From Serinibacter arcticus (GTDB taxonomy: Bacteria; Actinomycetota; Actinomycetes; Actinomycetales; Beutenbergiaceae): 64,000 nt of DNA. A model generated the notes under the pieces. That model had not been told where the DNA came from, searched no databases, and saw only the letters and a list, made by a program, of their open reading frames with translations. The translations under genes and the position numbers were made by a program. Each line of letters opens with the position of its first letter. Position 1 is the stretch's first letter. Where the stretch lies: NCBI RefSeq assembly GCF_003121705.1, contig NZ_PYHR01000002.1, forward strand, positions 3,782,001 through 3,846,000, given 5' to 3'. Below are positions 3,008 through 59,653 of this stretch, piece after piece.

Positions 3008-4258
3008 TCAGCCGCCGAGCGCCGCCAACCGGGCACTCCCCGGTGCGAGCGCCCGCGCGACAGTCACGGCCGACCGCACCGCGCTCTCGTGCGAATCCGC
3101 ACCCGCCGTGTAGGGGCCGGCGAGCCACACCCCGCCGCCGCCCTGCACCTCCGCCAGCCGTCGTTGCGCGTCGAAGTAGGTGGGCGTGACCTTGCCGTGC
3201 TCGTACGTCACGACAGGGTGGAGCGGCTCCGGCAGCTTCTCGGCGAACGTCACCCAGCTGCGGAAGACGTCGTGGCTGTGGCCGGGTCCCCACACGGTGT
3301 TCTGCGCGTGCGCGCCGTCCCACCGCACGTTGACCACGGACCACGCCGATCGGTCCGCGGGCATCAGCCGGGTGTCGCCGTGGACCGCGATCCTGGTGTC
3401 GACGTACTCGAACCGTGCGAGCTGCGCCCGCATCTCCTCGAGTCCGTCCAGCGGTCCGAGCAGCGCGAGCGCCTGCCGCGCGTTGGTGGCGACGACGACG
3501 CGGTCGACCGTGTGCGACCCGCCCGAGGAGTCGTGGACCACGAGGTCGCCCCCGTGGCGCTCGACGCGCTCCACGCCCACCCCCGTGCGGACGTCGGCGC
3601 GTTGGACGTCCCGCGCCAGCGCGTCCACGTACGTGCGGAGCCCGCCCTCGAGCGCCACCTGCCGCGGAGGCCGCAACCCGCCCGCGGCCGCCCCCGCGAG
3701 GTAATGCAGCGTGTTGAACGCCGCGAAGCCCTGCAGCTCCTCCGGTTCCACGCACCAGAACGAGAGGAGCAGCGGGTGGAGGAAGCGATCGACGAACGCC
3801 GCGGGGAGGCGCTGCGCCTCGATGTACTCGCGCGTCGTCGTCGTGGTGTCGTTGCTGGCGAGAAAACGGGGGACACCGGCGAGGAATCGGCGGAACCGGA
3901 TCACGTCGGCCAGAGCGCGGGGCGTCAGCGAGCGCCGGACGGGGCCGCCGCGCCAGGGCGGCAGCGCGACCGTGCTCCCCGTCGCCGTCGTGGTGAGCGA
4001 CATCGTGGCGGGATACGGCGTCCGCTCGAGATGGAGCGCGTCGAGCAGGCGGTTGAGGACCGCATAGGTGGGTCCCGTGCCGAAGAACTGGAAGCCCGCC
4101 TCCACCGGCACCCGCGCGCCGTCGACCTCGACCTCGATCGTGTGGGCGTGGCCGCCCAGCCGGACGTCGCGCTCGAGGAGCACGACGTCGTGCTCCTGCT
4201 CGAGCAGCCAGGCCGCCGTCAGACCCGCGCCGCCGGCACCGATGATCGCGATTCGCAT
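3008..4258 (-). CDS. FAD-dependent amine-oxidase-like oxidoreductase
   Basis: From the ATG at 4258 the protein (416 aa) begins MRIAIIGAGGAGLTAAWLL, a Rossmann dinucleotide-binding fold with GxGxxG at residues 7-12, followed by LLERDVRLGGHAHT, the usual FAD ribose/pyrophosphate-binding strand. The C-terminal GVWLAGPYTAGADSHESAV is the second FAD contact of the flavin amine oxidase family. It resembles the COG2907-type 'NAD/FAD-binding' proteins of actinobacteria whose substrate is unknown. GGAGAACG immediately upstream is the Shine-Dalgarno; the longer start at 4291 lacks the Rossmann motif at its N-terminus and was rejected. It is divergent from the gene at 4366. Acting alone in the neighbourhood, its pathway cannot be inferred. 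Confidence 0.8.
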   Translation of the reverse strand: MRIAIIGAGGAGLTAAWLLEQEHDVVLLERDVRLGGHAHTIEVEVDGARVPVEAGFQFFGTGPTYAVLNRLLDALHLERTPYPATMSLTTTATGSTVALPPWRGGPVRRSLTPRALADVIRFRRFLAGVPRFLASNDTTTTTREYIEAQRLPAAFVDRFLHPLLLSFWCVEPEELQGFAAFNTLHYLAGAAAGGLRPPRQVALEGGLRTYVDALARDVQRADVRTGVGVERVERHGGDLVVHDSSGGSHTVDRVVVATNARQALALLGPLDGLEEMRAQLARFEYVDTRIAVHGDTRLMPADRSAWSVVNVRWDGAHAQNTVWGPGHSHDVFRSWVTFAEKLPEPLHPVVTYEHGKVTPTYFDAQRRLAEVQGGGGVWLAGPYTAGADSHESAVRSAVTVARALAPGSARLAALGG

Positions 4259-58491: not shown

Positions 58492-58545
58492 GCCCCCAAC
58501 CCTACGACCCACCCCCCACAGGCCCGGGCTCCCCCCCACCCCGCC

Positions 58546-58601
58546 GAGTGCTGAGCTGTTGACGACGACACGCCGACCGCCCCGGCAACAGTTCAGCACT
58601 C
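58546..58601. repeat. Palindromic repeat copy A, 3' flank of the DUF559 gene
   Basis: Sixteen-base arms GAGTGCTGAGCTGTTG (58546-58561) and CAACAGTTCAGCACTC (58586-58601) pair 15/16 around a 24-nt centre. Copy B (59581-59636) has the same 16-24-16 layout. The centre of A matches that of B in reverse orientation (shared CGGCGTGTCG / CGACACGCCG core), so A and B are inverted relative to each other. A ends 7 bp from the DUF559 stop. Confidence 0.8.
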
Positions 58602-58608
58602 AGGCAGC

Positions 58609-59514
58609 TCAGCGGAGGCCGGTGCGGCGGCAGGCCCGGTCGTAGGCCCGACGGACCCGCCGGACCACCTCGTCTGGCCGGCGGAGCACGTCGTCAGCGG
58701 TGAACACGAGCACCTCCCACCCCTGGTCGCGGAGGACCTCGCGACGGCGGACGTCGCTGCGCCACGTGCCCTGATCCGTCCGGTGGAGGTCGCCGTCGTA
58801 CTCGAGCGCGAGCTTCAGCCGGGCGAACGCGAGGTCCAGCAGGGCGAGGAACGCTCCGTCCGACCCCAGAACCTCGACGTTCACGTCGGGGCAGGGCAGA
58901 CCGGCGTGCACGAGGAGCAGCCGAAGTCTGGTTTCCATGCTCGAGTCCGTGCGGGGCCGAACCAGCGGGAGCGCCTCGCGGCACGTGGCGATCCCCTTCA
59001 TCTTCCAGGTGCTCCGCGCGGCTTCCTCGAGCTCGGCCGGGGTCTCGACCGCGCTACCGCGCCGCATCATCGAGTCACCCAGGACGACCATGGCGTCGAC
59101 GTCGACGTCGAGCGCGGACGCGAGCAGCAGCCACGTCCACGCCGCGGAGGTGAGGCGCACGCCGTCGACCTCGGTCGTCGTCAGCGAGCGCTGGGCGCAG
59201 AAGTGGGCGACGACCCCGAGGCGTTGCGGACGCCAGCCCCGGCGCGGGGCGACGACGTGGATCCGATCGTCCTTCTCGAGCTGCCACGGAACCTCCGTGC
59301 CGAGCAGGCGCAGCGCCGTCACACCGGTGAAGACGCACGCGGGAGGAAGGATCTGGGCGACGGCGCGGCACTCGTCGGTGATCCGCGACGATCCGGCCAC
59401 CGTTCGGACGCCCCGGGTGAGGGTCGTCAGCTCGGAGGCGTAGATCTGACGGTGGGTCAGCCCGGCGGCGAGGGCCGCCGTCGTGGTGAACGGAGCGGGT
59501 AGCTGGTCGGCCAT
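58609..59514 (-). CDS. AbiEi-like N-domain / DUF559 (Vsr-like) endonuclease-fold protein
   Basis: 301 residues. The N-terminal segment FTTTAALAAGLTHRQIYA, then LTRGVRTVAGSSR, is the helix-turn-helix start of AbiEi-type antitoxin proteins. The C-terminal 110 residues are DUF559/Vsr-like: SSMETRLRLLLVHAGLPCP, then FLALLDLAFARLKLALEYDG and GTWRSDVRRREVLRDQGWEV, with candidate nuclease residues Glu (METRL), Asp (LLDLAF) and the EYDG motif. There is no AbiEii toxin partner. It is flanked by two inverted copies of a 56-bp palindromic repeat and interrupts the usual maf-accE neighbourhood, so mobility is possible but unproven. Confidence 0.75.
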   Translation of the reverse strand: MADQLPAPFTTTAALAAGLTHRQIYASELTTLTRGVRTVAGSSRITDECRAVAQILPPACVFTGVTALRLLGTEVPWQLEKDDRIHVVAPRRGWRPQRLGVVAHFCAQRSLTTTEVDGVRLTSAAWTWLLLASALDVDVDAMVVLGDSMMRRGSAVETPAELEEAARSTWKMKGIATCREALPLVRPRTDSSMETRLRLLLVHAGLPCPDVNVEVLGSDGAFLALLDLAFARLKLALEYDGDLHRTDQGTWRSDVRRREVLRDQGWEVLVFTADDVLRRPDEVVRRVRRAYDRACRRTGLR

Positions 59515-59580
59515 GCCCCACCGTCACAGAGCGAGCCACTCACGCGCTGGCTATCCACAGGTGGGTGGACCCACCCCCGT

Positions 59581-59636
59581 GAGTGCGGAGTTCTTGACGG
59601 TCGCGACGGCGTGTCGGCGGCAGAAACTCAGCACTC
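59581..59636. repeat. Palindromic repeat copy B, 5' flank of the DUF559 gene
   Basis: Arms GAGTGCGGAGTTCTTG (59581-59596) and CAGAAACTCAGCACTC (59621-59636) pair at 13/16 positions around a 24-nt centre that contains GACGGCGTGTCGGCGG. It lies 66 bp upstream of the DUF559 start and 17 bp from the accE stop. It is inverted relative to copy A. Confidence 0.75.
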
Positions 59637-59653
59637 AGCGAGTGGGGGGAGGG

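Follow-up and report, generated by a model that had tools for sequence, protein, structure and literature searches.

A probable Vsr-like nuclease gene bracketed by its own palindrome recurs across Micrococcales and suggests a REPtron-like element

The palindrome-bracketed DUF559 gene and its predicted product

The window analyzed in this study, a 64,000-nucleotide stretch of a Serinibacter genome, harbors two 56-bp repeats, designated palindromes A (58546 to 58601, minus strand) and B (59581 to 59636, plus strand), which share a 16-24-16 architecture. The arms of palindrome A read GAGTGCTGAGCTGTTG-24-CAACAGTTCAGCACTC and those of palindrome B read GAGTGCGGAGTTCTTG-24-CAGAAACTCAGCACTC, while the 10-bp core is CGACACGCCG in A and its exact reverse complement, CGGCGTGTCG, in B, such that CGGCGTGTCG reads on the minus strand in A and on the plus strand in B. 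Only one gene is located between the two repeats (58609 to 59514, minus strand; 301 codons plus stop), with palindrome A positioned 3′ and palindrome B positioned 5′ of it. The arrangement which had been claimed for this locus in an earlier note, i.e., a single AbiEi-N/DUF559 gene between two inverted copies of a palindromic repeat, was therefore confirmed, with one correction: the left arm of B is GAGTGCGGAG, and B thus represents an imperfect palindrome. Palindrome A folds far better than shuffled sequences (z of about -5), whereas B does so to a lesser extent (z of -1.8 to -2.7 as DNA and -2.0 to -3.2 as RNA). The arm ends of A, GAGTGCTGA and TCAGCACTC (58546 to 58554 and 58593 to 58601), resemble the half-sites of the CIRCE heat shock operator, yet in reversed order and with the wrong spacing, and this resemblance is probably a coincidence. 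Within the window alone the occurrence of the 10-mer is not significant, and the case consequently rests on the remainder of the genome and on its relatives.

The product of the bracketed gene was assigned to DUF559 (E value of 8e-8) and MTES_1575 (E value of 6e-7), whereas its AbiEi-like portion is weakly supported by sequence (PADLOC, E value of 6e-4) but clear by predicted fold. An AlphaFold2 model based on 40 homologs (mean pLDDT of 94.3) divides the protein into two halves. Residues 1 to 186 (58957 to 59514, minus strand) match the AbiEi antitoxin (PDB 6y8q; Z of 10.0) and PDB 1zel (Z of 7.4), while residues 189 to 296 (58627 to 58950, minus strand) match the catalytic domain of the homing endonuclease I-Bth0305I (PDB 3r3p; Z of 13.2), NGO0050 (Z of 12.3), and Vsr (PDB 1cw0; Z of 10.9), in agreement with a profile search (3hrl, E value of 2e-5; 3r3p, E value of 1e-3). 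Across 40 sequences, E194, E238, and G241 are invariant, and D227, D254, and R257 are nearly so, which is consistent with a working nuclease of the Vsr/EDxHD superfamily, both fold and catalytic residues being retained. In contrast to the I-Bth0305I and Vsr nucleases (EDxHD/PD-(D/E)XK), this domain is fused to an AbiEi-like domain and no intron is present; T:G mismatch activity was not examined. The locus does not have the composition of a type IV toxin-antitoxin (AbiE) system, as no AbiEii nucleotidyltransferase toxin gene is located between the palindromes, and the neighbors are a DUF885 gene and acyl-CoA carboxylase-type genes (the latter as read from sequence). AbiEi and Rv2827c bind their own inverted repeats and not those of each other (PMC7319586), and a DUF559 protein of Caulobacter is responsible for an SOS response in vivo (PMC12907096). 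Taken together, these data make a repeat-specific nuclease the simplest reading, although neither binding nor cleavage was assayed here.

Gene-specific palindrome families and their association with DUF559

Pattern searches with GAGTGC-N-GCACTC and GAGTGCNGAGNNNTTGACG identified the exact 56-bp form at eleven places of the genome, and a covariance model added a twelfth, the copies being located at positions 704792, 908254, 1104792, 3019430, 3030948, 3656625/713/801, and 4023894/982 of contig C2, in addition to A and B. In the half of the chromosome used for controls, nine copies of this type were found, against 0.05 expected with shuffled arms. Two tandem arrays with an 88-bp spacing (3656625 to 3656856 and 4023894 to 4024037) lie directly downstream of two rRNA operons and are nearly identical in both, probably owing to concerted evolution of the operons. 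The flanks often extend the palindrome outward (CCCGCT...AGCGGG). In G024, a relative belonging to another family, 29 copies recovered by their left half displayed a nearly invariant head of about 29 nucleotides including the core, a variable stretch of about 17 nucleotides, and a conserved inverted end, CCAGCATTC; the anchor TGCTGGGTT and a loose core match were fixed by the search, while the remainder was not. Thus, sequence at both ends and in the core, rather than perfect pairing, is what is retained. Covariation within the window family did not exceed that of shuffled sequences, and selection for hairpin formation itself is, therefore, not shown. No curated Rfam family matched the palindromes at threshold, palindrome A producing only a weak hit to DUF3800-IX (18.4 bits, below the cutoff of 36.8).

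Whether the repeats co-occur with DUF559 genes had been put forward in the earlier note as a test of its proposal. When the other DUF559 genes of this genome were inspected, none possessed the repeat of the window, but most possessed a palindrome pair of their own. A four-arm score was then applied, representing the number of positions, of 16, at which both arms of the left and both arms of the right palindrome agree, since simpler pairing scores missed pairs where gene calls (made with a simple purpose-written gene caller) overran the palindromes. In a first set, 24 of 35 loci scored 11 or more, against 10 of 600 re-paired flanks. With gene limits defined by homology, 30 of 62 nonredundant loci scored 11 or more, against 1.07% of 3,000 re-paired flanks and 2 of 787 control genes of the same genome (Fisher P of about 1e-35), both exceptions being dispersed copies of the palindrome type linked to the DUF559 gene at 3359557. 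The score favors clear palindromes, and about half of the loci fall below this strict threshold; loci from related genomes are, furthermore, not fully independent, though the palindromes differ between them. Two of the 11 DUF559 genes in this genome, the intact paralogs at 2841994 to 2842839 and 2453892 to 2454719 of contig C2, show no detectable matching palindrome pair. Genes of DUF3800, for which families of neighboring hairpins (DUF3800-I to XI in Rfam) are described, were considered as an alternative partner and rejected, as no DUF3800 gene was found in this genome, in G009 (another relative), or in G024, where the repeats are abundant, and 0 of 14 DUF3800 loci exhibited matching pairs.

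A 2-Mb scan which ignored gene positions returned, outside coding repeats, four pairs enclosing DUF559 genes (one a divergent member not found by BLAST), three pairs that are dispersed copies of DUF559-linked types, and a few weak GC-rich chance pairs at the threshold. The same arrangement was evident in genomes retrieved for another purpose, namely, those of Promicromonospora sukumoe, Actinomyces bowdenii, and Pseudactinotalea terrae. In P. sukumoe (locus L311, 6530 to 8528), the DUF559 gene has three palindromes on each side, alternating with tandem short repeats in a BIME-like array.

Each DUF559 gene tends to carry its own palindrome type, and the types are typically dispersed. In half of the chromosome, to which all counts other than those of the window type are restricted, about 14 to 20 copies were found for the 3359557 type, 11 for 2907048, 11 for 3602602, 6 for 1393246, 16 for 1711066, and 12 for 2967193, against shuffled-arm means of 0.05 to 1.25 across the types tested. 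Some of these lists include a few unrelated or cross-type palindromes, and the true numbers are thus somewhat lower, while the 2101414 type has only its own two copies. Dispersed copies favor convergent gene ends (19 of 40, versus 134 of 685 in the background) and avoid divergent regions (2 of 40 versus 147 of 685), the remaining 19 lying between codirectional genes (background, 404).

Covariation with the protein and presence or absence of whole units

Across the 30 paired loci, palindrome similarity follows protein identity (Mantel r of 0.32; 0 of 5,000 permutations), with 60% of protein pairs of at least 45% identity sharing an arm, compared to 10 to 21% of others. Several of the nearest homologs of the window protein (48 to 53% identity; loci L134, L135, L136, and L143) share its GAGTGC ends. 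The same core palindrome is found beside DUF559 genes in other genera: in G009 (locus L136); in G024, where the gene at 1248597 to 1249400 is bracketed by model hits at 1248430 to 1248484 and 1249595 to 1249649; and in the relative G056, where a DUF559 gene lies 132 bp from one. The genus mates G001 and G002 lack both the gene type of the window and its palindrome family, whereas genome G016 has weak model hits without an adjacent DUF559 gene. At the malic enzyme-rsgA locus (names read from sequence), the orthologous genes of this genome and G001 (65% protein identity) have palindromes that changed on both sides in the same way.

A comparison with close relatives for an empty site had likewise been put forward in the earlier note as a test, and one was found in Serinibacter arcticus K3-2, whose DUF885 neighbor is 86% identical. 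Here, the carboxylase gene and the DUF885 gene are separated by some tens of bases, and B, the gene, and A are all missing as one unit, the unaligned stretch corresponding approximately to positions 58510 to 59651 of the window. The short spacer (locus L293, 3944 to 3984) holds GCGACACGCGG, one base from the core, which may be a remnant or chance. None of 79 further relatives has a DUF559 gene between these neighbors, and conservation of the gene at this position in all relatives without the repeats, which had been named as an outcome that would count against the proposal, was not observed. When the joined flanks of six other units were used as a single query, four units of this genome (loci L032, L036, L037, and L038) were found to have empty sites in relatives: the unit at 1711066 is absent from G001 and G002 (about 140 bp instead of 1,660), that at 1393246 from G001 (about 111 instead of 1,302), that at 2907048 from G002 and the relatives G007 and G011, and that at 2967193 from G007. 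Where the site is long in G001 or G002, a DUF559 gene lies in it. Similarly, Promicromonospora panici lacks the gene that two congeners possess and retains a half palindrome at that position. These are differences in presence and absence, and their direction is inferred from the wider absence. Among viral contigs no relative was found, and a plasmid collection returned one weak hit.

Proposed function and alternative explanations

It is proposed, with a probability of roughly 0.6, that the unit is one member of a large class of small elements in which a solitary AbiEi-N/Vsr-like nuclease gene (DUF559/MTES_1575) is bracketed by two or more copies of its own cognate palindrome, which is also scattered through the genome as solo copies, thus working like a REP-RAYT system (REPtron) but with an unrelated enzyme. 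In this model, the AbiEi-like N-terminal half would recognize the cognate inverted repeat, the Vsr/I-Bth0305I-like C-terminal half would nick or cut DNA at or beside it, and repair or replication would then copy either the solo palindrome or the whole palindrome-gene-palindrome unit into new intergenic sites. What the present data demonstrate is the association of gene and palindrome, the existence of gene-specific palindrome families, their dispersal, their covariation with the protein, and the presence or absence of whole units, whereas binding, cleavage, and the causation of spread by this protein rather than by a hidden partner are inferences. No target site duplication or recent de novo copy was observed. 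A broader reading, considered somewhat less likely than not, is that DUF559/MTES_1575 proteins with an AbiEi-like half are the enzymes of a new class of mobile element in Actinomycetota, i.e., nucleases without HUH, DDE, tyrosine, or serine recombinase chemistry which recognize and spread their own palindromes, both solo and with the gene, with many independent gene-palindrome pairs coexisting in one genome.

The suggestion in the earlier note of a resemblance to REP-associated transposase units or homing elements, and of a possibly general, undescribed mobile or hairpin-processing system, is supported by these analyses, although homing, hairpin processing, and active mobility, while plausible, were not examined experimentally. 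The comparison with RAYTs, REPtrons, and TIRtrons (Nunvar 2010, PMC2817692; PMC3733652) holds for anatomy and distribution: a solitary gene is flanked by two copies of its palindrome, the palindromes are dispersed in intergenic, mostly unidirectional or convergent regions and are sometimes clustered, gene and repeat coevolve, and the presence of a gene type goes with that of its repeats. It does not extend to membership, as the defining Y1/HUH (IS200/IS605-type) transposase is absent (PF01797 was not found in the genome) and the bracketed protein is predicted to be Vsr-like. The published RAYT hallmarks (PMC2817692), namely, flanking by two inverted REPs, coevolution, and correlation of gene and repeat, are fulfilled in part. 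The flanking copies are inverted in the window, direct in L134, L136, L149, L157, and L181, and often of unclear orientation, so that no verdict on a fixed inverted arrangement is reached. Several different gene-palindrome types are present per genome, no GTAG/CGTC tag was seen, and copies number 5 to 35 rather than hundreds. No report joining DUF559 with palindromes in the relevant sense, or describing DUF559 as a mobile element, was found in a search confined to open-access literature.

Of the alternatives, the one which best survives, though unlikely, is a homing-type selfish gene, whereby the nuclease would cut genomes lacking the unit, the unit would be copied in by recombination, and the palindromes would serve as recognition marks, with solo palindromes being scars or decoys rather than mobile products. 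This is consistent with the closest solved fold being that of I-Bth0305I and with the unit-wise presence and absence. However, a homing gene normally disrupts its target site, whereas here both ends carry an intact copy, and up to about 20 dispersed solo copies per type in half of the genome exceed what scars would give. An empty site holding the intact target would be expected, yet the S. arcticus site has no palindrome and that of P. panici retains half of one, observations which do not settle the matter in either direction.

A regulatory reading, in which the AbiEi-like half is an autorepressor, the palindromes are its operators or insulators, and the dispersed copies form a regulon, is considered less likely still. 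AbiEi antitoxins repress by binding inverted repeats in their own promoter (PMC7319586), and one palindrome lies about 90 to 430 bp 5′ of the gene at the paired loci. Nevertheless, a matching copy also lies 3′ of the gene, usually within 10 to 130 bp, the dispersed copies avoid divergent, promoter-bearing regions, and the intact nuclease residues would be unexplained. It is also improbable that the palindromes are recombination or transposition sites of another, unidentified enzyme for which the DUF559 gene is frequent cargo, in the manner of an integron cassette or Tn cargo. Although no transposition chemistry has been shown for DUF559 and repeats could be moved in trans (integrases in these genomes were not examined), the palindrome types are gene specific and covary with the DUF559 protein, and the 2-Mb scan found no other gene family enriched between matching pairs. 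Ordinary intrinsic terminators or chance GC-rich palindromes, the former, without a link to DUF559, also specified in advance as an outcome which would refute the proposal, are contradicted by the controls: although many copies sit at 3′ ends, including the arrays downstream of the rRNA operons, 0 of 60 have TTTT within 10 nucleotides, and the left-right sequence matching and type-specific families are far above controls.

DUF559 is an abundant family of unknown function, often with about 10 copies per actinobacterial genome, and 98 of 246 sampled Actinomycetota genomes matched. Linking each copy to its own dispersed palindrome family provides the protein with a substrate to test, explains a set of short intergenic repeats, and suggests that REP-like repeat systems arose more than once with unrelated nucleases. 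If cleavage is site specific, the many natural protein-palindrome pairs would represent a ready set for studying how a nuclease changes target. A second kind of end, or a recent unit, is possibly represented by the DUF559 genes of A. bowdenii (locus L325, around 3031 to 3726) and of positions 2101414/2102640 of contig C2, which are flanked by longer (at least 84 bp), almost identical, weakly palindromic direct repeats.
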